From IMG/VR virus record IMGVR_UViG_3300009071_000096, positions 1-20,807 of that record: a DNA stretch of 20,807 nucleotides. One strand, written 5' to 3'. The position numbers and the translations under genes were made by a program. Source of the stretch: a virus. The notes below the pieces were generated by a model. That model saw only the letters and a list, made by a program, of their open reading frames with translations. It did not search any database and had not been told where the DNA came from. Shown here piece by piece: positions 3,166 through 20,807 of this stretch. The stretch's first letter is position 1, and each line of letters opens with the position of its first letter.

Positions 3166-4220
3166 GTCTAATGGACAAAATGCTCAAAGCAGGAACTGTC
3201 AAACACTCAGCTGTATTATCTAAATCAAGTTTCTTTAATGAAAAACAACCAATCAAGACTGATCTGCCTATTCTGAACCTCGCGTTCAGTGGATCACTTG
3301 ATGGTGGCTTGATTCCAGGTCTTACAGTGTTTGCTGGTGCCTCTAAGAGTTTCAAGACCCTTTTGGGTCTATATTGCATGAAGGCATATCTGGACAAATA
3401 CAAAGATGGTATTGCATTATTGTATGATTCAGAATATGGCATCACGCCTGACTACCTAGAAAGTTATAATATCGATACTGATCGTGTTTTGCACGTACCC
3501 ATCGAAGATGTCGAACAGTTAAAATTCGACATCACTCAGCGTATGGAAGACATTGGCAAAGGTGATCGTATCTTCATTATGATTGATTCGATTGGCAACC
3601 TTGCTTCTAAGAAAGAGGTCGAAGATGCTTTGAATGAGAAGTCTGTTGCAGACATGACTCGTGCAAAACAATTGAAATCACTCTTTCGAATCATTACACC
3701 TAAACTAACCACACGAGATATTCCGTGTATTGCTATCAACCACGTTTACCAAGAGATAGGTCTATTTCCGAAAGCAATCGTGTCTGGTGGTACCGGAATC
3801 ATGTACTCTGCCAATCAAGTGTTCATCATTGGTAAATCACAAGAAAAGGATGGCAAAGATCTCGAAGGGTTTAAATTTACTATTAATATTGAAAAATCTC
3901 GATATGTCAAAGAGAAGGCTAAACTACCATTTAGAGTCTTATTTGAGACCGGCATCCAGAAATGGTCTGCGCTGTTCGATCTTGCACTTGAATCAGGTCA
4001 TCTGGCCAAAGGTTCGACACAAGGTTGGTACAACGTAGTCGATATGGCTACCGGTGAGATGGTCGAACCCAAGCGTCGACTTAAAGACATCGAGAATGAT
4101 GATGAATTTTTTGAAAAATTGTGTGAAGATGCAAAATTCAAGACCTTTGTCGAAAATAAATTTAAATTAGGAACGGGTGATGCTAGAGAAGACGATACTG
4201 TCGAATCTGATACTGAATGA
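3162..4220 (+). CDS. uvsX: UvsX-type RecA-like recombinase
   Basis: The 352-aa product is the phage strand-exchange recombinase, which forms ATP-dependent filaments on ssDNA for recombination-dependent replication. The Walker A motif is GASKSFKT (59-66), matching the distinctive S-K-S-F-K form of T4 UvsX. Walker B is IFIMIDSIG (137-145). The DSEYGITPDYLE segment (89-100) and the DNA-binding loop region near FPKAIVSGGTG (202-212) follow the family. It is somewhat shorter than T4 UvsX (about 390 aa), mainly at the C-terminus, which here ends in an acidic tail. Its ATG overlaps the preceding stop by four bases, and its 3' end overlaps gp41 by about 41 bases. Confidence 0.95.
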   Translation: MSLMDKMLKAGTVKHSAVLSKSSFFNEKQPIKTDLPILNLAFSGSLDGGLIPGLTVFAGASKSFKTLLGLYCMKAYLDKYKDGIALLYDSEYGITPDYLESYNIDTDRVLHVPIEDVEQLKFDITQRMEDIGKGDRIFIMIDSIGNLASKKEVEDALNEKSVADMTRAKQLKSLFRIITPKLTTRDIPCIAINHVYQEIGLFPKAIVSGGTGIMYSANQVFIIGKSQEKDGKDLEGFKFTINIEKSRYVKEKAKLPFRVLFETGIQKWSALFDLALESGHLAKGSTQGWYNVVDMATGEMVEPKRRLKDIENDDEFFEKLCEDAKFKTFVENKFKLGTGDAREDDTVESDTE

Positions 4221-5598
4221 GAATTATTACCGCAAGGTTTATCCTTATTTAAAACAAGAATACTTTGAAGATAATTATCACCAAAAGGTATATTCGACTA
4301 TCTGTGAGTACGTCGAGAAATATCAGGAGCCTCCGTCTAAGGAGGCTTTATCTCTTTCTTTAGATAAGAGAAAAGACCTTAATGAGGATGCTTATCAAGG
4401 TGTACAAGATCTAGTAAAGGAACTTGCACTTGACGTAGATACGAACACAGACTTTCTTATCGATGAGACAGAGAAATTCTGCCAAGATAGAGATCTGTTT
4501 AATTCGGTTCGTAAATCGATTATGATTCTAGAAGGCGAGGGTGGTGACCTAGATAAAGGTGAGATACCGAAGCTTCTATCTGATTCTTTGGGCGTGTCTT
4601 TTGATTCAAGTGTCGGCCATGATTTCCTTGAGCAGAACGATGATCGATACGATTACTATCATAGAAAAGAAGAAAGAATTCCTTTTGATATTGAATTATT
4701 GAATCGAATCACCAAGGGTGGATTACCTCGTAAATCGATGACTGTTTTATTGGCTACGACCGGTGGTGGTAAATCACTGGTTAAGTGTCATATGGCATCA
4801 TCGATGTTGATGCATGGTAAGAATGTTCTATTCATTACTATGGAATTGGCTGAGGAAGAAGTTGCTCGAAGGATTGATGCTAATATTATGGATATCACTC
4901 TTGATGAAGTTGGTGAGATACCTCGTGATGTTTTTGAAAAGAGAATGGCTCGATACAAATCAAAAACCCCTGGCAAGATGATCATTAAAGAATATCCTAC
5001 GGGAAGTGCTCACGTGGGCCACTTCCGACATCTATTGAATGAACTCAAAATGAAGAAGAACTTTGTACCAGATGTCGTGTTTGTGGATTATCTGAATATC
5101 TGTGCTTCTTCTCGGGTGAAAGGTGCTGCAGCTGCCAATTCATACACGTTGGTGAAATCAATCGCAGAAGAAGTTCGTGGTTTGGCCATGGAATTCAATT
5201 GTTCTGTGGTGACATCATCTCAGTTCAATCGTGACGGATATGGTAACTCCGATGTCGATCTAACCAATACATCTGAATCAATGGGTATCACCCATACAGC
5301 AGATTGTATTCTTGGTTTGATTACATCTGAACAGCTAGACTCTATGAATCAATTGATGATCAAACAGCTAAAGAATCGATGGGGTGATCTCAGTTATTAT
5401 CGACGGTTCCTTGTTGGAATTGAACGGGCCAAGATGAAGATCTACGACCTAGAAGAAAGTGTACAACAAACTATTCACCAAGATTCCGGTGATATCAAGA
5501 AACAAGAAGATGACCGCCCAGTGTTCGATAAATCCCAGTTTGGCCAACGGCAGACTGGAGAGAAAGTTTCGAAATTCTCAATAGGAGGCTTGATATGA
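4180..5598 (+). CDS. 41: Replicative DnaB-like helicase gp41
   Basis: The product (472 aa) is the T4-type hexameric 5'-3' replicative helicase, loaded by gp59 and working with the primase. An N-terminal helical domain (1-150) starts MLEKTILSNLI, as in gp41. The RecA-like motor has Walker A ATTGGGKS (192-199), the TMELAEEEVARR helix region (220-231), Walker B VVFVDYLN (299-306), the sensor segment SSQFNRDGYGN (346-356) and a KNRWGDLSYYRR motif (398-409). ATG 4180 is preferred to GTG 4177 because AGGA (4169-4172) is then seven bases away; it overlaps uvsX by 41 bases. The last 40 residues are polar and probably disordered. The stop overlaps the next gene by four bases. Confidence 0.95.
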   Translation: MLEKTILSNLILNENYYRKVYPYLKQEYFEDNYHQKVYSTICEYVEKYQEPPSKEALSLSLDKRKDLNEDAYQGVQDLVKELALDVDTNTDFLIDETEKFCQDRDLFNSVRKSIMILEGEGGDLDKGEIPKLLSDSLGVSFDSSVGHDFLEQNDDRYDYYHRKEERIPFDIELLNRITKGGLPRKSMTVLLATTGGGKSLVKCHMASSMLMHGKNVLFITMELAEEEVARRIDANIMDITLDEVGEIPRDVFEKRMARYKSKTPGKMIIKEYPTGSAHVGHFRHLLNELKMKKNFVPDVVFVDYLNICASSRVKGAAAANSYTLVKSIAEEVRGLAMEFNCSVVTSSQFNRDGYGNSDVDLTNTSESMGITHTADCILGLITSEQLDSMNQLMIKQLKNRWGDLSYYRRFLVGIERAKMKIYDLEESVQQTIHQDSGDIKKQEDDRPVFDKSQFGQRQTGEKVSKFSIGGLI

Positions 5599-5870
5599 TA
5601 AGCGAAACAGATTTTGACTCTTTGATAGACAGCGTAGAGGAAATGGACCAGATCATTCGTGGGGAGAAATCCCCCGGCCGTGTGACAGAGTTCGAAGATG
5701 AGATAGAAGAAGAAGTCATTGTACTTGGATCTGCAAAAGCAACAAGAGCTGAGAAGTCTGCTCGCGCTAGGGCTAGGAGACACCAACGTAAATTAATTGT
5801 GGCAAAAAGGTGGTCCAATATCTTTGCAAAGTTGCACCGCATGAAAAAGAGTCTCAAGAAGCATAGGTAG
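5595..5870 (+). CDS. Small charge-segregated protein, 91 aa, unknown
   Basis: The family is not recognised. The start ATG 5595 overlaps the gp41 stop by four bases and has a strong AGGAGG (5583-5588), so it is surely translated with the helicase. Residues 1-45 are acidic (FEDEIEEEVIVLG near 33-45) and residues 46-91 are strongly basic (ATRAEKSARARARRHQRK, then RMKKSLKKHR at the end), a bipolar layout expected of a nucleic-acid-binding adaptor whose acidic half mimics DNA or binds a protein. It could be an accessory factor of the helicase/primase complex; that is inference from position. It is the last gene before the late promoter. Confidence 0.7.
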   Translation: MISETDFDSLIDSVEEMDQIIRGEKSPGRVTEFEDEIEEEVIVLGSAKATRAEKSARARARRHQRKLIVAKRWSNIFAKLHRMKKSLKKHR

Positions 5871-5884
5871 ATCTGCTGGGATAT

Positions 5885-5892
5885 TATAAATA
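5885..5892 (+). promoter_or_regulatory. T4-type late promoter (TATAAATA)
   Basis: An exact match to the T4 late promoter -10 octamer TATAAATA, recognised by gp55-type late sigma, lies in the 45-base gap after the last replication gene. Transcription would start around 5898, with GGAG (5907-5910) and ATG 5916 just downstream. No sigma70 -35 accompanies it. It marks the start of the late block. Confidence 0.8.
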
Positions 5893-5915
5893 ACTTTATC
5901 GCATACGGAGTTATC

Positions 5916-7346
5916 ATGAAAAGTTTCACTATTTTTTTAGAATCATTATCCCCTGCAGATGAGAATCGCTTGGCTCTGGAGATTACTACAGAGATTGATA
6001 ACGCCATTGGCTCAATTCCCACAGAGATTTCTATCGACGATAGACCTAAGAAATCTAACAGCGCTAAGCTCGGGATTTCTCAGTTGATGGCGGATAAAGA
6101 TAGAACCAAATATGCTCCGTTAGCAAATGACTTCATATCCTCTCACCCAGACTTAGAGAATGTTTCGGTACCGCCTGCCCGGCGTGAGAAAGATTATGCC
6201 TTCAAGCACAAGGACATGGATCGAATTGTCTATGTGAATGTTAGACCGGATGGCAAGCGTTCTGGTGCTGGTGATGACCCACATGAATTGATGACTGCGG
6301 CTCTCATGCTGAAATCAAGCATCACTAATCCTACAAACTCGGATGAGATGGATGCTCTGATTGAAGAGGTTCGTGGTAGCTTGGATAAAGTCAAAGGATA
6401 TAAACAAGGACAGGTTGACAGTCTCGCAGGAGATTATTCAAATCTGGCCAAAGCAGTTTCTGCGGCCCAGGCAATTCATGCTGCTGGTTATGGTGGTGCT
6501 GATATGGTCTATCTCACCGGCCAAGCTTGGGACGACGATGTGAAACAATTCCAAATCTCTAAGTACGGCATGAATGACTTTAATTCTTCTGATTTTATCA
6601 TTAGAAAAGGCAACAAGCACTTGGGTGTCTCTCTGAAGAAAAAGATTCGACTCACCGAAACTGATCCTACTTTAATCAACAAATCATTTTCCACGCTCTT
6701 TGCAGACAAGAAGTTTGAAAAGATGATGAAGGATATCGATAAGAAAGCAGGCCTGTTCTATCTTAAAGTCATTGCAAGGGCTAAGAAGAAAGGTGAATTA
6801 TCTGATGCAATCTTAGCAGACATGAAAAAAGTACGACCCGATACAAAGAACTGGAAACAATATGTTCAACGTATCAACAATGAGATTATCAATGCCGAAT
6901 TGAGAACATCTCGATCACTCTTTGATCCGATTGCCAAATCGATCATTGCAAATAAAGAGATGATTGGTAACCAGTTAGTACAATTGATTTTCAAAGCAGA
7001 TTTAAAAGACTTGCAGAAAGTCGATTTCGATTTTACTCTTGTGACAGGTATCGGTGATTATGGCCCCAAGAAAGGTGTTGTAATCGAGAAGGGTGAATAC
7101 AAAGACATCGATACTGTATCAGAAAAAATAGAAAACCTCGCCTCCAAAGGTGGTGTCGAATTAGATTACACACCAGGCAGTGTACAGGCATTTGAACCTG
7201 GATCCACTGCTGCAATGCTACAATTTGACTTGAAACTAGGTGGTGTGGTATTATGTCATATTAAATTGCGATATAAAGGGAACTTTAGATCTGCGCCTTC
7301 ATTTACTGCAGTGATGAGTGATGAGTTTAAAAACATATACAAGTAA
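5916..7346 (+). CDS. Conserved late phage protein with capsid-targeting-like start, 476 aa
   Basis: Function is unknown. ATG 5916 has GGAG at 5907-5910 and follows an exact late promoter, so the protein is made with the virion parts. It starts MKSFTIFLESL, close to the T4 capsid-targeting sequence of internal head proteins. Other visible parts are a GDDPHELMTAALML stretch (119-132), recalled from hypothetical proteins of marine T4-like phages, and SSDFIIRKGNKHLGVSLKKK (224-243). The last has the beta-strand, Asp and Lys spacing of a PD-(D/E)XK nuclease core, but with Ser instead of the second acid, so a nuclease fold is only a weak suggestion. The middle (265-345) is Lys-rich and helical; the C-terminus is beta-rich. 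It may be an internal head protein or packaged DNA-binding enzyme. Confidence 0.8.
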   Translation: MKSFTIFLESLSPADENRLALEITTEIDNAIGSIPTEISIDDRPKKSNSAKLGISQLMADKDRTKYAPLANDFISSHPDLENVSVPPARREKDYAFKHKDMDRIVYVNVRPDGKRSGAGDDPHELMTAALMLKSSITNPTNSDEMDALIEEVRGSLDKVKGYKQGQVDSLAGDYSNLAKAVSAAQAIHAAGYGGADMVYLTGQAWDDDVKQFQISKYGMNDFNSSDFIIRKGNKHLGVSLKKKIRLTETDPTLINKSFSTLFADKKFEKMMKDIDKKAGLFYLKVIARAKKKGELSDAILADMKKVRPDTKNWKQYVQRINNEIINAELRTSRSLFDPIAKSIIANKEMIGNQLVQLIFKADLKDLQKVDFDFTLVTGIGDYGPKKGVVIEKGEYKDIDTVSEKIENLASKGGVELDYTPGSVQAFEPGSTAAMLQFDLKLGGVVLCHIKLRYKGNFRSAPSFTAVMSDEFKNIYK

Positions 7347-7389
7347 AAAATGTATCATTAAATATACAATGTAAAGGATAAGAAACAAA

Positions 7390-8139
7390 ATGAAGCCATT
7401 TAGTTATGATTTGTTTGAGGCAATAAAGGGTAAAGATTTGCGGCACAATTTTGAAGGATGGGATACATTAGAAAAAAATTATTCAGAATGTTTGCAAGAT
7501 GTATATGTGATGTCCATGGTCGATGGTAAAAAGAACGGAACATATTTAGAGGTAGGAAGTGACCATCCTACATTTAGGAGTAATACTGCTCTGCTTCAAG
7601 ACAATGGATGGACTGGAATCAGTTTTGATATTAATGAAGAAGCAGTAAAAGAATGGAATTTGGTACGAGGGACTGGTGATGGCGTTGATCTTCCGGTGGG
7701 AGGAACCAATAGAGCTTACGCAATGGATGCCACCAAGATAAATTATGATACATTGATGCATAGACATTATGGGGAGCATTGTAGATTTACTCAAAATAAT
7801 GTGATAGATTATCTTCAATTAGATTGCGACCCACCTGAAGTATCTTATCAGGCAATGCTTAAGATACCTTGGAATTTTTATCAGTTTCGGGTAATTACAT
7901 ACGAACACGATGATTACTTCTATGATGATCAAGATTATAGAACATTGTCGAGAGAATTTTTAACGAAGCGAGGCTATGTATTGGTCGCTCCGAATATATC
8001 ACCGGATGAAGATAGGTCTAGAGCTTTTGAAGATTGGTGGGCGCATCCCCAGCTTATAGATAAAGAGATTCTAAGAAAAATGACTACATATAATGATGGA
8101 AATAAAACACCTATAGAGTATATACTGGGAAACATTTAA
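7390..8139 (+). CDS. FkbM-like SAM-dependent methyltransferase
   Basis: The 249-aa product fits the FkbM-type methyltransferases, which O-methylate sugars and other small or polymeric substrates. The SAM-binding loop is GTYLEVGSDHPT (50-61), the acid at the end of the next strand is D80 (GISFDIN), and the later conserved strand pair is IDYLQLDCDPPE (139-150) and VITYEHDDY (168-176). The ATG is preceded by AAAGGA (7373-7378) eleven bases away. The first ten residues, MKPFSYDLFE, followed by Ala resemble a head-targeting tag with an L-x-E cleavage site; this piece precedes the catalytic domain and is not part of the usual fold. It overlaps the next gene by one base. Substrate unknown; it may belong functionally with the glycosyltransferases downstream or be head cargo. 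Confidence 0.7.
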   Translation: MKPFSYDLFEAIKGKDLRHNFEGWDTLEKNYSECLQDVYVMSMVDGKKNGTYLEVGSDHPTFRSNTALLQDNGWTGISFDINEEAVKEWNLVRGTGDGVDLPVGGTNRAYAMDATKINYDTLMHRHYGEHCRFTQNNVIDYLQLDCDPPEVSYQAMLKIPWNFYQFRVITYEHDDYFYDDQDYRTLSREFLTKRGYVLVAPNISPDEDRSRAFEDWWAHPQLIDKEILRKMTTYNDGNKTPIEYILGNI

Positions 8140-9371
8140 TGGGCACATTCAAGGATTTTCTTCTTACCGAAGCTAAGAACTTGCATATGACACACCTCGA
8201 AGATGCTGTGATCGATGGTGGTGTTAATGGCACTCGCAACGTTATCTTGTATCTCCGTGCTCTCCGAGATATGTTAGCTGGTAATACTAGCGCTGCTGTT
8301 TCTATTACAACTAAATGGGACGGTGCCCCTGCTATATTTGCTGGTATTGACCCGTCTGATGGCCGGTTCTTTGTGGCTAAAAAGGGTGTCTTCAATAAGA
8401 ATCCGAAGCTTTATAAATCAAATGAAGACATTGATAATGATTTGAGTGGTGAATTAAATGATAAATTTAAAGTCGCGCTCGTTGAATTCTCCAAATTGGG
8501 GATTGAAGGAGTTGTACAAGGTGATTTCCTCTATACGTCGGACGATATCAAAGCACAAAACATTGATGGCGAACCGCATCTTACTTTCCATCCTAATACC
8601 ATTGTTTATGCGATACCGGTCGATTCAGACCTCGCTAAAACAATATCAAGATCAAAGATCGGTGTGGTCTGGCACACAACATACCGAGGAGCAGATCTTG
8701 AATCAATGTCAGCAAGTTTTGGAAAGGCGATTGTCCCAAACCTCAAAAAAGTAAGTTCTGTGTGGAACGTAGATGCTGTCTTTGAAGACAAATCAGGTAC
8801 CGCCACATTTACTGCCCAAGAAACAAAAGAATTCACTGCCCTATTATCTAAGGCAGGCTCTCTATTCAAAACATTAAAGAAAGATGTGTTGGAAGGTCTC
8901 TATAAAGATTCGGAATTGAATATGAGAGTAAATACTTTCATTAATTCAAAGGTAAGAGAAGGAGCTCCTGTCGGTGATCCTAAGTCCTTTGTTATTGGCT
9001 TACGCCGTTTTATTGATGACTATTACAACAAAGAGGCATCTAAACGAGCCTCTCCGAAGGGTAAACAGACACAAGTAGATAAAAAGAATAGTGTCCTTTC
9101 TTATTTTAATAAATATAAGGATAAAGACATCGAAAAAGTTTTTGAGTTATATAATATGTTAGTCGATGCCAAACACATAGTGATCGATAAACTGAATACT
9201 GTACAGGGTATCAAGACTTTATTGAAGACTTCGAAAGGGTTCGAGGTTACTGGTCAAGAAGGTTTTGTTGCTATTGATCATACTGGTAAGAATGTTTTAA
9301 AATTGGTAGATAGAATGCAATTCAGCAGAGCCAATTTCTCTCCAGATTACATAAAGGGATGGCAAAAGTAA
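8139..9371 (+). CDS. Predicted ligase/capping-type nucleotidyltransferase, 410 aa
   Basis: The motifs of the covalent nucleotidyltransferase superfamily (DNA/RNA ligases, capping enzymes) can be read in order: motif I TTKWDGAPAIF with the candidate nucleotidyl lysine K59 (KWDG, 59-62), a RFFVAKKGVF strand (76-85), motif III-like EGVVQGDFLY (123-132, GD in place of GE), IIIa-like TIVYAIP (154-160), motif IV EGFVAI (374-379) and motif V VLKLVDR (386-392). A roughly 200-residue helical, Lys-rich insert separates IIIa from IV. T4-like marine phages carry such proteins as conserved hypotheticals. It begins MGTFKDFLLTE followed by Ala, a head-targeting-like tag with an L-T-E site. The start overlaps the previous stop by one base. 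Likely chemistry is AMP transfer and nucleic-acid joining; an inactive structural homologue is the alternative. Confidence 0.65.
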   Translation: MGTFKDFLLTEAKNLHMTHLEDAVIDGGVNGTRNVILYLRALRDMLAGNTSAAVSITTKWDGAPAIFAGIDPSDGRFFVAKKGVFNKNPKLYKSNEDIDNDLSGELNDKFKVALVEFSKLGIEGVVQGDFLYTSDDIKAQNIDGEPHLTFHPNTIVYAIPVDSDLAKTISRSKIGVVWHTTYRGADLESMSASFGKAIVPNLKKVSSVWNVDAVFEDKSGTATFTAQETKEFTALLSKAGSLFKTLKKDVLEGLYKDSELNMRVNTFINSKVREGAPVGDPKSFVIGLRRFIDDYYNKEASKRASPKGKQTQVDKKNSVLSYFNKYKDKDIEKVFELYNMLVDAKHIVIDKLNTVQGIKTLLKTSKGFEVTGQEGFVAIDHTGKNVLKLVDRMQFSRANFSPDYIKGWQK

Positions 9372-9374
9372 CTC

Positions 9375-10763
9375 ATGGCTCAATGGAATAAAAAAACTCA
9401 ACAGTTTTTACCCAACGGTACTTCATTATTTGAAGCGGTTACCTTGGCAGATCGCTTTGGCGCACAGGCCGACTGGAGACCCTCATTTACTTCTAAGAAT
9501 CGTCTCAAGGTTTCCAATCCTAAGACGATGTTTCACCACACATTTTCACACGTGGTTGAAGATGATTCCTGGCTCCAAGAGTTGGGTGGTACAGCTGTAA
9601 TCTATATTGCTAACGATAGCCCAACTCCTGAGACGTTTGATCCTCTTAACCCAGGCATCTACAAAGTCACAGAAAACACTGCTGTAGCCGTAGTCAAAGC
9701 TGCAAATGATTTTATTCGAAGAGAAACATCAAACGTTATTTCTTATATTCCAGGCAAAGAACAATTTGTCACAATGGCATGTAGATTCGATATTCCTGTT
9801 GCAGACATCACTCGTCGAATCGGTATCTATAATGACGAAAACGGAGCTTTCTTTGAGGATGATGGTACTGGCGATTACTTTCTTGTCATTAAAAAGAATG
9901 GCGTCGAGACTGTTCGAGTAGGTAGAAATGCTGGAGAATGGAATGGCGATGCGCTTACCGGTGACGGTAGATCTCAAATTATAGCTAATCCTATTACACA
10001 ACAATTGCTTGGTATCGAATACGAATGGTATGGATCGGGTCAAGTGAAGTTCGGTTACGTGATCGACGGCGAGTTTCATGTTATCCATACTGTAAATAAC
10101 GCCAACTACACCGTGGGTACTTGGACAAAGACTCCATTTTTACCATTGAGACAAGAATTAATTGCATCTGGTACCTATACTGGGCCATCTCAGTATTTCT
10201 ATCTGTCCTCTAGTTCTGTAATTGCAGAAGGTGGTATTGAAGATATTGGTTCAATTCATAACGCAGAAAATGGTTTAGATTTTGTGTCTAGTTCACCTCT
10301 AGTAGAAATCGATACCACAACAAATAATTTAATCAATGCAAAAACCTTCTATCCGTTAATTTCTCTTCGGCTAAAACCTATTGCACTTGCAGCCGCTGTA
10401 AGAATTATGGAACTGCAAGTATCTTCTGTAGATAATACGAATCTCTATTTCATGATGATTCGTAATGGTACTCTTACTGGAGCAACTTTTACAGATCCAG
10501 GTGAAACGTATAGTGCTGTAGAAATTGATACTGCTGCTACTGATGTATCTTTTACGAAAGACAATATTATATTTTCCGGAGCAGCACTATCTGGAAGTAG
10601 TAGTCCAATACAGTTTCTTGAAAGCGCACGTTATCAGCTTAAAAGAAAATTTGCGACAAACACTTTTTCTGCTTTAGAATCAGATACAGTAACAATTGTA
10701 GCTGCAGCGACATCTCCTTCCAAGACGGGCATCGGCCAGGTATCATGGTCTGAATTATATTAA
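9375..10763 (+). CDS. Virion structural protein, beta-rich, 462 aa
   Basis: The sequence resembles structural (fibre or decoration) proteins of marine T4-like phages. The N-terminus MAQWNKKTQQFLPNG...TSLFEAVTLAD (1-26) is a recurring start among such virion proteins. A long beta-rich domain (about 110-270) with ISYIPGKEQFVTMACRFD, GIYNDENGAFFED, VRVGRNAGEWNGD and FGYVIDGEFHVIHTVNNANY looks like a lectin- or jelly-roll-type sandwich. The C-terminal 180 residues are Ser/Thr-rich and beta-rich. It begins three bases after the ligase-like gene. No enzyme motif is seen. A capsid fibre, baseplate or tail-fibre role cannot be separated from sequence alone. Confidence 0.75.
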   Translation: MAQWNKKTQQFLPNGTSLFEAVTLADRFGAQADWRPSFTSKNRLKVSNPKTMFHHTFSHVVEDDSWLQELGGTAVIYIANDSPTPETFDPLNPGIYKVTENTAVAVVKAANDFIRRETSNVISYIPGKEQFVTMACRFDIPVADITRRIGIYNDENGAFFEDDGTGDYFLVIKKNGVETVRVGRNAGEWNGDALTGDGRSQIIANPITQQLLGIEYEWYGSGQVKFGYVIDGEFHVIHTVNNANYTVGTWTKTPFLPLRQELIASGTYTGPSQYFYLSSSSVIAEGGIEDIGSIHNAENGLDFVSSSPLVEIDTTTNNLINAKTFYPLISLRLKPIALAAAVRIMELQVSSVDNTNLYFMMIRNGTLTGATFTDPGETYSAVEIDTAATDVSFTKDNIIFSGAALSGSSSPIQFLESARYQLKRKFATNTFSALESDTVTIVAAATSPSKTGIGQVSWSELY

Positions 10764-10991: not shown

Positions 10992-11631
10992 AAAGAAAAT
11001 CATACAGATATGGATAGGACCTAATCCTGCTCCTATCAAATGGATTCAGACTTGGAAAGATAAACATCCAGATTGGAATCATATCCTTTTTACCGATGAA
11101 ATGCTTAAAGCCCGTAAATGGAAAAATCAGCATTTAATTGATCAATACTATCAAATGAAAAAGTGGCCTGGAGTATCTGATTTAATTAGATACGAATTGC
11201 TCTATGAGCAGGGTGGATTCATGCCAGAGGCAGATTCTCAGTGTTTGGAAAGGGTCGATGAGCTATTCACATCACCACCCGAACACGCTTATACCTGCTG
11301 GGAAAACGAAAAGGCAAAGCCTGGGTACGTGTGTCCTGTCTTAGCAGCAAATCCCGGTAATAAATTCTTAAAAGATATCATTGATATACTACACGCAACG
11401 AAACCCGAACACTTAAAACCTGAACCATTCCGATCTACTGGTAATCTATTCCTAGCAGGATTGATTCCAAGATATAGACACATGCTTACAATTTGGCCTT
11501 CTCATTTCTTTGTTCCTCAATGGTACGTTGGGCCTAGATATGATGGACCAGGTAAGATTTATGCCGATCAATTCTGGGGTTCTACAGGCCTTTTTAAGAA
11601 TGTCAAAACCTATGATAAAGGAACTACATAA
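10972..11631 (+). CDS. GT32-like glycosyltransferase
   Basis: The 219-aa product matches the glycosyltransferase family with the 'DXD sugar-binding' region found in Och1- and capsule-type enzymes. It has KKIIQIWIGPNPAPIKWIQTW (8-28), HPDWNHILFTDE (32-43) and the hallmark PGVSDLIRYELLYEQGGFM (66-84). The metal/nucleotide-sugar acidic motif that follows is PEADSQ: E86-A87-D88 in place of the usual D-x-D. The start is uncertain between ATG 10972 and ATG 10981; the family pattern begins right after the second. It overlaps the coiled-coil gene upstream and, by one base, the sulfotransferase downstream. It probably adds a hexose to a glycan; donor and acceptor are unknown. Confidence 0.75.
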   Translation: MRIMNIEKKIIQIWIGPNPAPIKWIQTWKDKHPDWNHILFTDEMLKARKWKNQHLIDQYYQMKKWPGVSDLIRYELLYEQGGFMPEADSQCLERVDELFTSPPEHAYTCWENEKAKPGYVCPVLAANPGNKFLKDIIDILHATKPEHLKPEPFRSTGNLFLAGLIPRYRHMLTIWPSHFFVPQWYVGPRYDGPGKIYADQFWGSTGLFKNVKTYDKGTT

Positions 11632-12374
11632 TGTATCTTTCAAAAAAACACAAAGTCATTTTCATAAGATCACCAAGATCCGCCGGAAGTTCGGTTATGG
11701 AATTTTTAATCGAAAATTTAAAAGACGATGAGGCCATTCACACAGGTTGTGAAGATGGGAATCAAATAGCCGATACACTACCGAGCAGTATAAAAAAAGC
11801 TATGATTGTAAACGGGACTAAACCTATGGAAATCAAATTCATGGGTCTGGATGATATTCTAGCTTATATCAACATTGTAGATGAAGACAATTTAGAAGAC
11901 TACAGAGTGTTCACGATACTGAGAGATCCTGTCGACAGACATCGTTCGATGTACAACTCTCTAAAAGAAACATGGAGCAGAGATATCCCTACCATGCTGG
12001 ACGAATATCATTACTTGGCCGGGTCACCAGGCGGAATTGCAAGTCATTTTAAAAATGATACAGGTGGTTCTATCAAGGTAACAGACCAAATGTCGTACAG
12101 GGGACAATTATATGGTCGTGTTTATCTATTACCTTTTCTTGAAGACCACTTACGTGATTTACTCGAAGATTTAGGTTTACCGTTAGTGCACGAATTGCCT
12201 AAATACAAAAAAGAAGAAAATGAATATTCTCCGTTACCGTTTGATTATGAAACGATAATGGCAATGAAAAAATATTTCAAGAATGATTTCAATCTCTATT
12301 CGAGATTAAGGATTACAGCGGATGAAACCAACAAAGACTTTTATTCTAAGACATTCAAACGAAAAGAGTCATGA
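11631..12374 (+). CDS. Sulfotransferase-like protein (cassette)
   Basis: This 247-aa protein has the two PAPS-binding marks of carbohydrate sulfotransferases: VIFIRSPRSAGSSVMEFL (9-26), with the 5'-phosphosulfate loop PRSAGSS (15-21), and VFTILRDPVDRHRSMYN (93-109), with the 3'-phosphate-binding R98 and Ser107 region. The layout is that of the family acting on sugars in glycans. It shares one base with the glycosyltransferase before it and 53 bases with the GT25-like gene after it, so the three are probably made in fixed proportion. It is not a close duplicate of the sulfotransferase at 244, whose loop is QRTGT. PAPS would have to come from the host. The acceptor is unknown. Confidence 0.7.
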   Translation: MYLSKKHKVIFIRSPRSAGSSVMEFLIENLKDDEAIHTGCEDGNQIADTLPSSIKKAMIVNGTKPMEIKFMGLDDILAYINIVDEDNLEDYRVFTILRDPVDRHRSMYNSLKETWSRDIPTMLDEYHYLAGSPGGIASHFKNDTGGSIKVTDQMSYRGQLYGRVYLLPFLEDHLRDLLEDLGLPLVHELPKYKKEENEYSPLPFDYETIMAMKKYFKNDFNLYSRLRITADETNKDFYSKTFKRKES

Positions 12375-13053: not shown

Positions 13054-13069
13054 CATTTAAGTGGTTCAT

Positions 13070-15607
13070 ATGTCATATCTAGAAGAAGTTCGCAAAAAGA
13101 AATATCGAGAAGCTAAAGCTGTAGTGGTCAATAAAGAAGATGATCACGACGATACCGAGCTTGACGCCGACGATAGCGATACTAAAAAAGAACCTAAGGC
13201 TGAAAAACCTAAGAAGGGTGATAAAAAGAAGAAAGGCAAGAAAACAATTGCCTTCAAAGAATTTGATCCAGCCAAATACATCGAAATAAATCCTGTTACT
13301 GAAGCCACAGAAGGTGATAAGGCAGTAGTTACTACATTTGGTAGGATGAACCCACCTACTAACGGTCACGAAAAACTTGTGTTCGCAATGAAAAAGCAAG
13401 GCCGTAAACGTAAGGCGGATGTAGCAATCTACCTATCCCACTCACAAGACGCTAAGAAGAATCCTTTAGGTTATAAGGACAAAATAAAATATACTCAGCA
13501 GGCGTTTGGTGATATCATACAGAATTCTAAGGCAAGAAATATAATCGAAGTTCTGAAAGAGCTCGATTCCAAATACGCATTGGTCACAATTGTTGTAGGT
13601 TCTGATCGTGTGAAAGAATTTGATACTCTTGCCAACAAATATAACGGTAAAGAATATAATTTCAAATCAATTGAAGTTGTCTCTGCTGGCGAACGCGATC
13701 CAGACTCCGAAGGTGTTGAGGGTATGTCTGCATCTAAGATGCGCAAACTTGTCGCTGATGATAACTTCCCTTCATTCCACATGGGTCTGCCAGACCGTAT
13801 AGTCAGAACGCCAAAAGTTGCAAGAAAGATGTTCAACACCATCCGTGATGAGATGGGCCTCAAAAAAGAAGAGTCAATTGATTTTGATGAATTGCTTAAG
13901 AGTGTTCGTGAAATGGATGACATCGTCAACGAAGAAGAGGTTGATGAAGCTTTGAATCCGGCTCAACGCCGAGCCCGAAGTCTCCAGATGAAGAAGATGT
14001 CCAAACAGATTGCGCGTAAGAGAAAGCAATCAATGAAGAAGCAGGCCTCTCCCGAAAAATTGAAGGCACGTGCAGAAAAGGCAGCAAGAAACTTGCTAAA
14101 GAAAAAGATTGCTGCTGGTAAAGACACAGGTGATTTGTCATTTTCCCAGCGACAAAAGATTGACGATAAAGTTAAAAAGATTGGGGGAGCTAAATTAAAG
14201 ACTCTTGCCAAGAAGTTATTGCCTCAGATTAAGACAAAAGAAAAAGAACGAATTAAAGCAATGCGTTCGAAAAAAGAAGAAGTCACAGAACTGATGGATG
14301 CAGTAGAACATTATATGTCTACTGAGATGCTCGAAGAACATCGTCATGCCAAGATCTACACAAGACCGCACCAATTGATGAAACAAGATCATTCGGTGAA
14401 AATCGATTACCGCTTCAAAACATTTAGAAAATGGAAGCCCGTTGTCGAACCCGCACCTAGTACAGATCAGGTCGACTCTCCCGAGCCGGAACTTGATGAA
14501 GAGGATCCTTGTTGGGATGGATATCAGCAAGTAGGCATGAAGAAAAAGAACGGCAAGAAAGTTCCTAATTGTGTCCCCGAAGAACTCGAAGAAGGGGTCA
14601 ATGTCGAAGAAGGGGTCAATGATCCAGCGATATTCAAAGCAATATTCTTGGCTGGCGGCCCCGGTTCTGGCAAATCATTTGTCGTAGGTAAGACTGCCTT
14701 ATCCGCCCTTGGAATGAGGGTAGTCAACGTTGACGATGCATTTGAATTGGCAATGAAAAAGGCAGGACTTTCTTTAAAGACCGATACTTTTACTGATAAA
14801 GGTCAAGAGCTTCGAGGTAAGGCTTCAGATCTTACCGGCAAGAAACAAGAAATGTTCTTAAAGGGTCGCCTAGGACTGGTCATTGATGGTACCGGAAAAG
14901 ATTATAAAAAAATCAAAGAACAAGCTGATATCCTTAAAGAATTAGGTTATGATGTAGGTATGATCTTTGTTAATACGGATAGAGATACTGCATTAAAGAG
15001 AAACGCTCAAAGAGAGCGATCCCTGCCACCAAAAGCAGTGGACAAGATGTGGCAGGATGTTCAGAAAAATCTGGGCCGATTCCAAGGTTATTTCAGAAAA
15101 AATTTCATCATTGTTGATAACAGTGTGGGCGCTAATTGGGAAGCTGGAACTCAAAAGGCGTACAAATGGGCTAATAAGTTCACGCGTACGCCTCCTACCA
15201 GCCCAGAAGCAACCAAATGGATCAAACAAAGAAGTGAGTCCATAGAAGAAGATTTTGGCGCTGATGGTCTCTTGATGAAGCTTGTTCCTTGGATCGCAAG
15301 ATGGGCTGATACAAAAACACACAAGAAACAATATGCTCGAGCAGTTCGTACATTCCTAGATTTACGAAAAAAGAATCCGAAACATGCAAGACAAAATCTT
15401 GTGAAGGCAGCCCAGATCAACAATGTGGATACAAGAGCCCTTGATAAATTCTTTAGAGCAATGGTTGACAAAGGACTCATGCCTGCTCATTTAATTAACT
15501 ACCATCCGACATTCATGACAAAAGCATGGACTGAAGAAGGTGGGGCAGGAGAAGAAGGCACGGATAAATTAGTAAAAAGATATAAATCCGACACGCCTGG
15601 AGAATAA
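13070..15607 (+). CDS. Multidomain protein: HIGH-type nucleotidyltransferase plus P-loop kinase
   Basis: Numbering is from ATG 13070 (845 aa; GTG 13061 is less likely). After a charged leader, residues 85-265 form a cytidylyltransferase/NMN-adenylyltransferase-like domain: FGRMNPPTNGH (90-100, the HxGH equivalent), IVVGSDRVKEF, and GMSASKMRKL (218-227, the ISxTxxR equivalent). Residues 290-400 are extremely Lys/Arg-rich, starting ALNPAQRRARSLQMKK, as in head-core proteins of marine T4-like phages. CWDGYQQVGMKKK (481-493) is a short motif I recall from the same phages. A P-loop kinase domain of zeta-toxin/polynucleotide-kinase type follows (520-695): Walker A GGPGSGKS (529-536), VVNVDDAFE, GLVIDGTGKDYKK and RNAQRERSLPP lid. 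A helical C-terminal domain (728-845) is unknown. Products may be a NAD- or nucleic-acid-metabolising enzyme; a NadR-like pairing is possible. Confidence 0.75.
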   Translation: MSYLEEVRKKKYREAKAVVVNKEDDHDDTELDADDSDTKKEPKAEKPKKGDKKKKGKKTIAFKEFDPAKYIEINPVTEATEGDKAVVTTFGRMNPPTNGHEKLVFAMKKQGRKRKADVAIYLSHSQDAKKNPLGYKDKIKYTQQAFGDIIQNSKARNIIEVLKELDSKYALVTIVVGSDRVKEFDTLANKYNGKEYNFKSIEVVSAGERDPDSEGVEGMSASKMRKLVADDNFPSFHMGLPDRIVRTPKVARKMFNTIRDEMGLKKEESIDFDELLKSVREMDDIVNEEEVDEALNPAQRRARSLQMKKMSKQIARKRKQSMKKQASPEKLKARAEKAARNLLKKKIAAGKDTGDLSFSQRQKIDDKVKKIGGAKLKTLAKKLLPQIKTKEKERIKAMRSKKEEVTELMDAVEHYMSTEMLEEHRHAKIYTRPHQLMKQDHSVKIDYRFKTFRKWKPVVEPAPSTDQVDSPEPELDEEDPCWDGYQQVGMKKKNGKKVPNCVPEELEEGVNVEEGVNDPAIFKAIFLAGGPGSGKSFVVGKTALSALGMRVVNVDDAFELAMKKAGLSLKTDTFTDKGQELRGKASDLTGKKQEMFLKGRLGLVIDGTGKDYKKIKEQADILKELGYDVGMIFVNTDRDTALKRNAQRERSLPPKAVDKMWQDVQKNLGRFQGYFRKNFIIVDNSVGANWEAGTQKAYKWANKFTRTPPTSPEATKWIKQRSESIEEDFGADGLLMKLVPWIARWADTKTHKKQYARAVRTFLDLRKKNPKHARQNLVKAAQINNVDTRALDKFFRAMVDKGLMPAHLINYHPTFMTKAWTEEGGAGEEGTDKLVKRYKSDTPGE
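14586..14621 (+). repeat. Perfect 18-bp tandem duplication, two copies
   Basis: TCGAAGAAGGGGTCAATG occurs twice head to tail (14586-14603 and 14604-14621). It adds exactly six codons, so the product reads LEEGVN then VEEGVN just before the kinase domain. The reading frame is kept. The absence of any substitution suggests a recent slippage event or selection for a doubled linker/cleavage site. Confidence 0.9.
15581..15588 (+). promoter_or_regulatory. Late promoter candidate (TATAAATC) before the fibre genes
   Basis: TATAAATC matches seven of eight bases of the T4 late octamer and lies 22 bases before the ATG of the first fibre gene, within the last codons of the multidomain gene. The spacing to the start codon is close to that of the exact promoter at 5885, which supports it moderately. 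Confidence 0.4.
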
Positions 15608-19389: not shown

Positions 19390-20807
19390 ATGAACGAACT
19401 AGAAACAGCTTTCATGGAGAAGCTCTCAGATAAAGCTGCTAATATGTCACCCGAAGAAAAGAAGGCAATGGAGGTCATTCAAAAAGCGTGGTCTGGTCTT
19501 TCTTCTTCTGAGAAGTCTAAATTCATCATGGCATATGCCAAGAATCCCTCTCAGGCTATAGATCATATTATGAAGGGACTGAAGAAAGAAGATTTGGAAT
19601 TGGGTGAAGATAAAGAAGATTTGGAAGAGATTATTGGTAAGATTATTAAAAGATTCTCCACATCAGGTCGTGCTGACGCTGCTGAAAAGAAAGCAAATGC
19701 ACTCGAAAAGAAGGCAAAAGACAGAGAACGTCTGAAGAAGGCCAAGGAAAGAATTGCAGCTTCTAAGAAGGCTGAACGTGAACGTAAAATGAATAAAGAA
19801 GACCTTGATGAAGCTAAGAAGCCTTCAGATGATGAGATGATCGATGTAATGGGTCTTGCAAAGAATTCTAAAGAGGCAGTTAAGCTCATTCAGAAGAAAT
19901 ATAAGATGGATGCTAAAACCGCTGAGGCAGAAGTTAAGCGACTGTTAAAGAAACTTCTTGGTGAATCACTCAGGAAAGATATTGCTCAATTATCTGCTAA
20001 GTTCCCTGAAGGGTCTGAGGTCACTATGAAGCATAATGGCAAGAAAGGCAAGGTTCTTTCTGTCGGCAAAGATCATGTGATCGTGGGTGTTGGTAATAAG
20101 ACACATACTCATAAGCCCGACGAGCTGATTCCAGAATCATTAGACGAATATGCAAAAGAAAATCCAATGATCATGAAGCTGAAAGGTAAGAAGGTCGAAC
20201 TCTTAAAGACCGGCAGTTCATTTAAACCAACATTTACCCTCACTGTTGATGGAAAAGAAGAAGGTAAATTCGGTTCTGAAAAAGATGCTATGAAGCATTT
20301 TGCTAAAATGACTAAAGAAGATGTAGAAGAGTCTTCATCACAATACGGCAAGTCAGTTGAGCGTATTAAGGATAACAAGAAGAAGTCAAAAATCAAGCCT
20401 GGTGAGTTGGATAAACTATCTCGCTTAAGAGATATGATGAAAAAAGCTAATGAAGAACTTGAAGAAGCGCGTGTTGAAGCTGTTCCTCAAGATGCTCCCC
20501 TAAAGGTTAAGAAGGATCAACAGGTTCTTTCCTATACCACCCGAGGTGGTCAGAAAATGAAGGTCGCCGTAGCCAAGGACAAGGCTTTTGCTGCTCTGGG
20601 TCATTATCGCAAGATGGGCATGACTAATGTTCAATTAGAATCCACAGAATATGAAACCAAAAGTTTCACTTCCTTTATTGAAGGCACTGTAGATCGAGAG
20701 AAGTTAGTCAAAGTATTTGACAAATTGAAAAAAGGTTCAACCGTCAAAATCAAGTCTAATGACTCCATCAAGAAGGGTGATGACTACATTGAATTTGTTG
20801 TTAAATC
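19390..20807 (+). CDS. Lys/Glu-rich late phage protein, 3' end cut by the window
   Basis: ATG 19390 has GGAG six bases upstream (19380-19383); 472 codons are open to the window edge with no stop. The N-terminal 95 residues are helical, 95-140 is a Lys/Ala/Glu coiled-coil segment (AEKKANALEKKAKDRERLKK), and 205-245 is a small beta-barrel-like unit (GSEVTMKHNGKKGKVLSVGK) of KOW/SH3 flavour. Another beta unit spans 262-295, and a further module begins near 424. Candidate prohead-protease sites of L-x-E form occur as LDE/A (139-142) and LEE/A (357-360). An embedded KSFTSFIEG (424-432) repeats the tag that starts the protein at 5916. Prohead core or internal head protein is the likeliest role; no enzyme motif is visible. 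Confidence 0.75.
   Translation, partial: MNELETAFMEKLSDKAANMSPEEKKAMEVIQKAWSGLSSSEKSKFIMAYAKNPSQAIDHIMKGLKKEDLELGEDKEDLEEIIGKIIKRFSTSGRADAAEKKANALEKKAKDRERLKKAKERIAASKKAERERKMNKEDLDEAKKPSDDEMIDVMGLAKNSKEAVKLIQKKYKMDAKTAEAEVKRLLKKLLGESLRKDIAQLSAKFPEGSEVTMKHNGKKGKVLSVGKDHVIVGVGNKTHTHKPDELIPESLDEYAKENPMIMKLKGKKVELLKTGSSFKPTFTLTVDGKEEGKFGSEKDAMKHFAKMTKEDVEESSSQYGKSVERIKDNKKKSKIKPGELDKLSRLRDMMKKANEELEEARVEAVPQDAPLKVKKDQQVLSYTTRGGQKMKVAVAKDKAFAALGHYRKMGMTNVQLESTEYETKSFTSFIEGTVDREKLVKVFDKLKKGSTVKIKSNDSIKKGDDYIEFVVK

Follow-up and report, generated by a model that had tools for sequence, protein, structure and literature searches.

Probable T4-type capsid-targeting sequences on two enzyme-like proteins of a marine T4-like phage

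Introduction

Why do neighbouring phage genes for unrelated proteins share a style of N-terminus otherwise known from the internal head proteins of T4? The question is raised by the IMG/VR virus record IMGVR_UViG_3300009071_000096, a stretch of 20,807 bases (the window, taken here at its full length) in which the T4-like myovirus genes gp59, gp32, uvsX and gp41 are followed by a late-looking cluster. It represents a piece of a marine T4-like myovirus and has its closest annotated relatives in the Kyanoviridae (phage C48C1, Pelagibacter phage HTVC008M and cyanophages). Three of its open reading frames (ORFs), referred to by their first position, start with MKSFTIFLESLS (5916), MKPFSYDLFEAIK (7390) and MGTFKDFLLTEAK (8139), exactly as noted in a sequence-only reading that took all three for capsid-targeting tags and proposed that the tagged enzymes are packed into the head. 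That reading was also right that the proteins have unrelated folds: the 5916 product is a candidate nucleotidyltransferase of the DNA polymerase beta (pol-beta) type, the 7390 product is an FkbM-like methyltransferase and the 8139 product is a DUF6267 protein with ligase-like motifs.

The yardstick for such tags is T4. The first ten residues of internal protein III (IPIII) suffice for head packing, and genetic analysis attributes targeting to the aromatic residues at positions 4 and 7 and processing by the protease gp21, which cleaves after (L/I)-x-E, to Leu or Ile at position 8 and Glu at position 10 (PMC9026906). The internal proteins of T-even phages are diverse proteins with this tag as their sole common part (PMC3012670), and the regular expression applied here recovers both IPII and IPIII from the T4 genome. 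Measured in this way, the first 9–11 residues of the 5916 and 8139 products are very probably T4-type capsid-targeting sequences that serve head packaging.

Leaders of the 5916 and 8139 proteins

Both targeting residues, Phe-4 and Phe-7, are present in the 5916 and the 8139 product, and the 7390 product has Phe-4 and Asp-7. The processing element follows the cleavage rule exactly in 8139 (L9-T10-E11/A) and 7390 (L8-F9-E10/A) and approximately in 5916 (F-L-E), as had been read from the sequence. Exact forms occur in relatives of the 5916 protein, e.g., LKE in L003, a sister contig that bears all three genes.

The 8139 leader, MGTFKDFLLTEA, lies outside the folded protein. PF19782 (DUF6267) matches the product with an E-value of 4.8e-106 from residue 14 onwards, and in the AlphaFold model residues 1–17 have predicted local distance difference test (pLDDT) values below 50 (mean of the model, 84.9). 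The 77 homologues with a recognisable start reduce to 43 distinct leaders, in which the columns of lowest entropy are 4 (Phe in 35 of 43), 10 (Glu in 35 of 43), 5 (Lys), 8 (Leu/Ile) and 7 (Tyr/Phe/His). [LIVMF]xE is present in every one of the 43, several residues off position 10 in some; certain leaders hold two cleavage-like elements (MLRFKNFITEDFITEEKN in L008, MKRFKNYIAEEILTEDKN in L012), and a conserved KN(L/T)HM block comes directly after the leader. Leader-less homologues, found in P-SSM2, S-PM2, Syn9, S-SM1, L294 and L306, begin at the conserved body (MKNTHIEHPED in P-SSM2, MAVKNLHLEHLED in L294). This body carries the motifs KxDG and EGxV and the C-terminal motif-V Lys of ATP-dependent ligases, and K59, D61, G62, E374, G375, V377 and K388 are invariant among 33 sequences. 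Structure comparison matched it to a phage RNA ligase in BFVD (E 6e-4) and to RNA ligases in the PDB at E > 0.2 only, and a sequence search against solved structures returned chance matches only.

A comparable architecture is found in the 5916 protein, in which residues 1–11 are modelled with pLDDT below 50 (mean 79.1). Its body weakly resembles pol-beta nucleotidyltransferases in the predicted structure, Foldseek matching it to TUT7/Tailor with an E-value of about 2e-3, a probability of 1.0 and template modelling scores below 0.25. The 51 homologues with a readable start give 28 distinct sequences over the first 20 residues, nearly all of which contain Phe-4 and [LIVMF]xE; most show Phe-4, an aromatic residue near position 7 and [LIVMF]xE soon after, with variable spacing. 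In the homologues of L271 and L272, a stretch that reads as PAP2-phosphatase-like is located between tag and body.

The two leaders are read as tags because their letters are rewritten between close relatives while the pattern stays. Between the window and L003, only 4 of 10 tag letters are kept in 5916 (body identity 69.5%) and 3 of 10 in 8139 (body identity 88.0%). Alignment of N-termini across homologues, which the sequence-only reading had suggested as a check, thus shows the pattern kept in the 5916 and 8139 families and not in the case of 7390. The proposal of head packing is supported for these two proteins, with leaders that are modular, disordered in the models, outside the fold, built on the four T4 positions and found in gp21-encoding relatives.

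gp21, virion proteins and cleavage of the leaders

The protease that would process the leaders is present among the relatives: PF03420 (gp21) was found in the long contigs G001 and G002, whose DUF6267 proteins are 68% and 53% identical to that of the window, in C48C1, HTVC008M and three cyanophages, and in T4, KVP40 and RB49, and it was not found in P-SSP7, HTVC010P, N4, SPO1 and P1. Among contigs retrieved through the tag, 11 of 40 (1.68 Mb) encode gp21, where about 10 would be expected at one gene per 170 kb; among contigs retrieved with a reversed-motif control, none of 10 does. Tagged leaders occur in gp21-encoding phages, a link that the earlier reading had suggested checking. Beside gp21 in the relatives, the scaffold protein gp22 contains 5–11 [LIVMF]xE elements per 100 amino acids versus about 2 genome-wide, and LSE/A and LTE/T lie near the position of the T4 LTE/A site in gp23 of G001 and C48C1 (the names gp22 and gp23 being assigned by gene order and resemblance).

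A tag-like start is also found on a protein known from virions. The cytidylyltransferase T4-GC190 was detected by mass spectrometry in purified particles of cyanophage S-SM1 (PMC3037559). Its gene starts with MKKFSAFLNE/AERSF, and no other ORF within the 96 kb of S-SM1 covered by the scan has a tag-like start. Homology links the T4-GC190 family, which includes members in P-SSM2 (annotated T4-GC 190) and Syn9, with the cytidylyltransferase domain in the 13061 product of the window.

Cleavage of the 5916 and 8139 leaders after their Glu is likely. The leaders may instead target the proteins to the prohead core without being cut, or be cut in some proteins only, which we consider unlikely. Such targeting has a precedent in T4, where Asp at position 10 permits targeting without processing (PMC9026906), and it would accommodate the Phe-Leu-Glu of 5916 and the off-position [LIVMF]xE of some 5916-family and DUF6267 leaders. 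However, targeting alone does not need the [LIVMF]xE that every distinct DUF6267 leader keeps, and the gp22 and gp23 sites of the relatives fit gp21.

The N-terminus of the 7390 protein

The third N-terminus was rejected as a tag. The 7390 protein matches, by tblastn, an annotated FkbM methyltransferase inside a glycosyltransferase cluster, and a homologue scan of viral contigs yielded near-identical copies only. Compared with L003, 9 of its first 10 letters are kept though the bodies are only 54.4% identical, and the sole change replaces Glu-10, at the scissile position, by Asp, which is also found in the relative encoded by L005. That all three N-termini are tags, with the 7390 version degenerate yet working, would agree with its Phe-4, with its adherence to the cleavage rule and with the fact that homology to other FkbM-type proteins begins only at residue 15–17 or later, which indicates that the N-terminus is an extension. 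This interpretation is nevertheless improbable, as it has to account for Asp-7, for the loss of Glu-10 in close relatives and for letters that are conserved where those of the neighbouring tags have been rewritten. On its sequence, the 7390 terminus behaves as a letter-conserved extension outside the tagged set, and the proposal of head packing is not supported for this protein.

Specificity of the pattern

Several observations weigh against capsid targeting as the function of the 5916 and 8139 leaders. The gp21 gene is not on the 20.8-kb window and is seen only in longer relatives; the 5916 tag has Phe-Leu-Glu at its end in place of (L/I)-x-E, and that of 8139 exceeds the T4 tag by one residue. 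The detection in S-SM1 virions concerns a neighbouring enzyme family, and the N-terminus of the protein was not mapped there. DUF6267 homologues of isolated cyanophages have no tag, so packaging of the DUF6267 protein is not universal. Lastly, short amphipathic peptides and helices at an N-terminus can serve many other roles. The pattern might accordingly be unrelated to the head, docking the proteins to a different partner of phage or host origin or acting as a translation-start feature that favours expression, but this is very improbable: it comprises the four positions that function in a peptide proven to target the head, recovers T4 IPII and IPIII, tracks gp21, occurs on the virion protein T4-GC190 of S-SM1 and is conserved at amino-acid positions 4, 7, 8 and 10, away from the start codon.

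Capsid targeting as the function of the two leaders is also favoured by the rarity of the pattern. A relaxed form occurs at 0.23–0.39% of internal Met residues and at the start of a single ORF among the 497 of five gp21-less phages. Two tagged products among about 18 main ORFs of the window correspond to P of about 0.002, a rough value because the pattern was loosened after the tags had been seen. The strict pattern was found in 15 of 2,454 ORFs and at one internal Met in ten gp21-encoding genomes, in none of the 497 ORFs of the five phages without gp21, and at a rate near 0.01% among internal Met residues. At DUF6267-selected loci it was found at 113 of 1,886 Met residues within the first 25 positions, compared with 2 of 6,688 internal ones, in a redundant set with related sequences, for which a Fisher P does not represent a real probability. 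The IMG/VR collection was scanned with a degenerate DNA form of MK[ST]FKxF(hydrophobic)xE, which retrieved at least 120 stretches, with 120 of 128 matches at ORF starts among the matches listed; the reversed residue order retrieved 13 stretches in the whole collection. Tags within one contig are more alike than tags of different contigs, weakly only (permutation P 0.04). Chance likeness in a lineage with Lys- and Phe-rich N-termini can be dismissed for the two leaders. The relaxed pattern does yield false matches (one P1 ORF and probably uvsW.1 of RB49), but the rates among internal Met residues argue against it and conservation across homologues in the 5916 and 8139 families excludes it.

Breadth of the tag and fused proteins

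By BLAST, the tagged ORFs of the fetched DNA form 92 mutually unrelated families; as the set is partly motif-selected and a few members will be chance matches, this number shows diversity and not frequency. Clustering of the proteins by 3-mers was discarded in favour of BLAST clusters, having lumped unrelated ones. Aligned with one another, 74 tagged proteins give the consensus MKxFKxFIxE and share almost nothing beyond it. Pfam families represented in the tagged set include ART-PolyVal, Zeta_toxin/AAA_33, HD_4, RNA_ligase, GNAT, phage lysozyme, a DPBB lytic-transglycosylase-type domain and cytidylyltransferase. As far as the sequences tell, the tag is a modular, swappable unit on many unrelated proteins of environmental T4-like phages, including nucleotidyl-transferring, kinase, ligase-like and effector-type enzymes. 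Because the same tag precedes dozens of unrelated proteins, the particles of these phages probably contain a diverse set of enzymes.

Separate and fused versions of the same domains can be compared. Cytidylyltransferases encoded separately (about 40 distinct starts) and separate kinases (8) mostly have a tag directly before the domain, and fused versions usually have [VIL]xE/[AG] at the same border (VTE/A, INE/A, VEE/G, LEE/G). Of the 10 such sites in the 13061 protein of the window, 9 are located in linkers (P 3e-4, the limits of the domains having been set by hand), although this excess may partly reflect acidic linkers. By this comparison, gp21 would cut fused polyproteins at their domain borders. 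No general excess of internal tag copies was found in fused proteins (4 observed, 1.65 expected, maximum 4), so the copy at 20659 (Table 1) is a single case.

Some individual proteins are of interest in their own right. On L365, a 14-kb contig, seven tagged genes are clustered at about 3,400–9,400, one of them encoding an ART-PolyVal ADP-ribosyltransferase. C48C1 likewise has several tagged ORFs, at 61824, 63080, 63448, 64854 and 68091. A tagged HD_4 protein on L062 (20033–20662), with similar proteins on L040 and L339, appears SpoT-like and is a possible hydrolase of guanosine tetraphosphate (ppGpp), and an environmental protein on L314 (1588–2433) starts with MKTYQEFISEA, one letter off the tag of T4 IPIII. 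In T4 itself (NC_000866, 18966–19130, minus strand), gene 61.1 encodes a 54-amino-acid product of unknown function that has a start like a capsid-targeting sequence, MKTFKEFIKE/D, and may be an unrecognised head-packaged protein. In KVP40 (NC_005083, 37733–39834), the adjacent hypothetical genes KVP40.0065 and 0066 follow gp24 and the late sigma gene 55 and have the tag-like starts MLGNFDSFLSE and MKQFCNFLAE.

Proposed mechanism and comparison with known systems

In the proposed mechanism, aromatic residues 4 and 7 would dock the protein, late in infection, to the prohead scaffold core formed by gp22 and associated proteins, and gp21 would then cut after the Glu of (L/I)-x-E, so that the enzyme stays in the head in its mature form. 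If the T4 internal proteins are a guide, the enzyme would exit with the DNA at the next infection and thus be delivered into the host. Scaffold binding, cleavage in the window phage and ejection are all steps that we infer.

The closest likeness is to T4 IPI, IPII and IPIII, which share with the window tags a leader of about ten residues, aromatic positions 4 and 7, hydrophobic position 8, Glu-10, unrelated mature domains behind a common tag and a gp21-encoding phage. However, IPI, the only T4 internal protein with a described role, is a small restriction-enzyme inhibitor of a T-even coliphage, whereas the marine tags are on large enzymes and vary in the spacing between the aromatic pair and LxE. 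The T4 ADP-ribosyltransferase Alt is a large head-packaged enzyme that is trimmed by gp21 and injected; its fold differs from those of the window proteins, and tagged ART-PolyVal proteins occur in the wider set. T4-GC190 of S-SM1 is a separate gene with its own tag, while the homologous domain of the window lies inside a fused protein, preceded by VTE/A. Polyvalent proteins, which are multi-domain, have effector-type domains and are thought to be delivered with DNA, resemble the tagged set and are not linked to a gp21-type tag in the parts of their description consulted (Iyer et al. 2017, PMC5512222). Unlike them, the tagged set includes many single-domain proteins, and its fused members have gp21-like sites at domain borders. 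The ejection proteins of phiKZ and SPN3US are likewise head-packaged and processed after Glu by a gp21-like protease, with propeptides much longer than the window tags. The phiKZ cleavage motif is S/A-x-E (PMC9026906).

No description of the motif in cyanophages, metagenomes or outside T-even phages was found in the literature searched, which left aside preprints and most subscription journals. The mechanism appears to be that of T4, in a setting (marine phages, large enzymes, many families) undescribed in that literature. It is possible, if doubtful, that across environmental phages of the T4 superfamily one ten-residue tag is a general loader of dozens of unrelated families (ligase-like, nucleotidyltransferase, polynucleotide-kinase, ppGpp-hydrolase-like and ADP-ribosyltransferase), some of them as gp21-cut polyproteins, and that the set of the window acts in the first minutes of infection, e.g., in RNA-end repair or in restoring nicotinamide adenine dinucleotide (NAD) against host defences. 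With polynucleotide-kinase-like and cytidylyltransferase-like domains encoded nearby, one may reasonably guess, though no more than guess, that the packaged kit serves to repair RNA ends or to salvage NAD.

To our knowledge, no role is known for the majority of genes in marine T4-like phages. If a tag of ten residues is recognisable in the sequence, it would single out those whose proteins are borne in the particle and are perhaps active at once on infection, with a prediction for each that can be tested. It would also extend a mechanism of T-even coliphages to ocean phages and large enzymes and give a reason for the published, unexplained presence of a cytidylyltransferase in cyanophage virions. 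The tagged proteins would moreover be natural examples of enzyme loading into phage heads.

Gene context in the window

The coordinates of the features discussed are collected in Table 1.

Table 1. Features of the window, with the basis of each assignment; tags and cleavage sites are putative.
Feature	Position	Strand	Basis
T4-type late promoter motif, TATAAATA box	5885..5892	+	Upstream of the 5916 gene
N-terminal tag MKSFTIFLE of the 5916 product (F-L-E/S, variant spacing)	5916..5942	+	pLDDT, family leaders, L003 comparison
5916 protein body, phrog_3060, fold like pol-beta type nucleotidyltransferases	5943..7346	+	AlphaFold, Foldseek
N-terminus MKPFSYDLFE of the FkbM-like methyltransferase, judged no capsid-targeting tag	7390..7419	+	L003 comparison, Asp at 7
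FkbM-like methyltransferase gene	7390..8139	+	tblastn
N-terminal tag MGTFKDFLLTE of the DUF6267 protein	8139..8171	+	pLDDT, PF19782 start, homologous leaders
DUF6267 body, ligase/nucleotidyltransferase-like motifs KxDG, EGxV, C-terminal Lys	8172..9371	+	PF19782, motifs, BFVD match
Fused protein: cytidylyltransferase-like domain, basic domain, P-loop kinase, C-terminal domain	13061..15607	+	Pfam CTP_transf_like, AAA_33/Zeta_toxin; PHROG cytidyltransferase, polynucleotide kinase
Candidate gp21-type site VTE/A, just before the cytidylyltransferase domain	13295..13306	+	Separately encoded homologues begin here with a tag
Candidate gp21-type site VDE/A, between cytidylyltransferase and basic domain	13940..13951	+	Split C48C1 homologue starts MLSFKQFVSE
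Candidate gp21-type sites LEE/G, VEE/G, just before the kinase domain	14585..14614	+	Leader at the N-terminus of eight split kinases, same border
Tag-like segment KSFTSFIE/G in the last, incomplete ORF (19390 onward)	20659..20682	+	Sequence reading; resembles the 5916 tag MKSFTIFLE/S

The TATAAATA box has 2 matches in the window versus 1.5 expected by chance and is therefore suggestive through its position alone. Late promoters before all three genes (5916, 7390 and 8139) were considered and rejected, the box being present at 5916 only and showing no excess in the window.

Directly 3' of the DUF6267 gene, positions 9375–10763 encode a virion structural protein (phrog_1645). Two proteins, at 244–978 and 11631–12374, were judged to be sulfotransferase-like by reading the sequence; the former has no Pfam or PHROG match. 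Between 15611 and 19378, the adjacent genes 15611, 16977 and 18155 encode products with almost the same N-termini, MA(S/T)TFK(L/I)(Y/A)ADKMGATDP.

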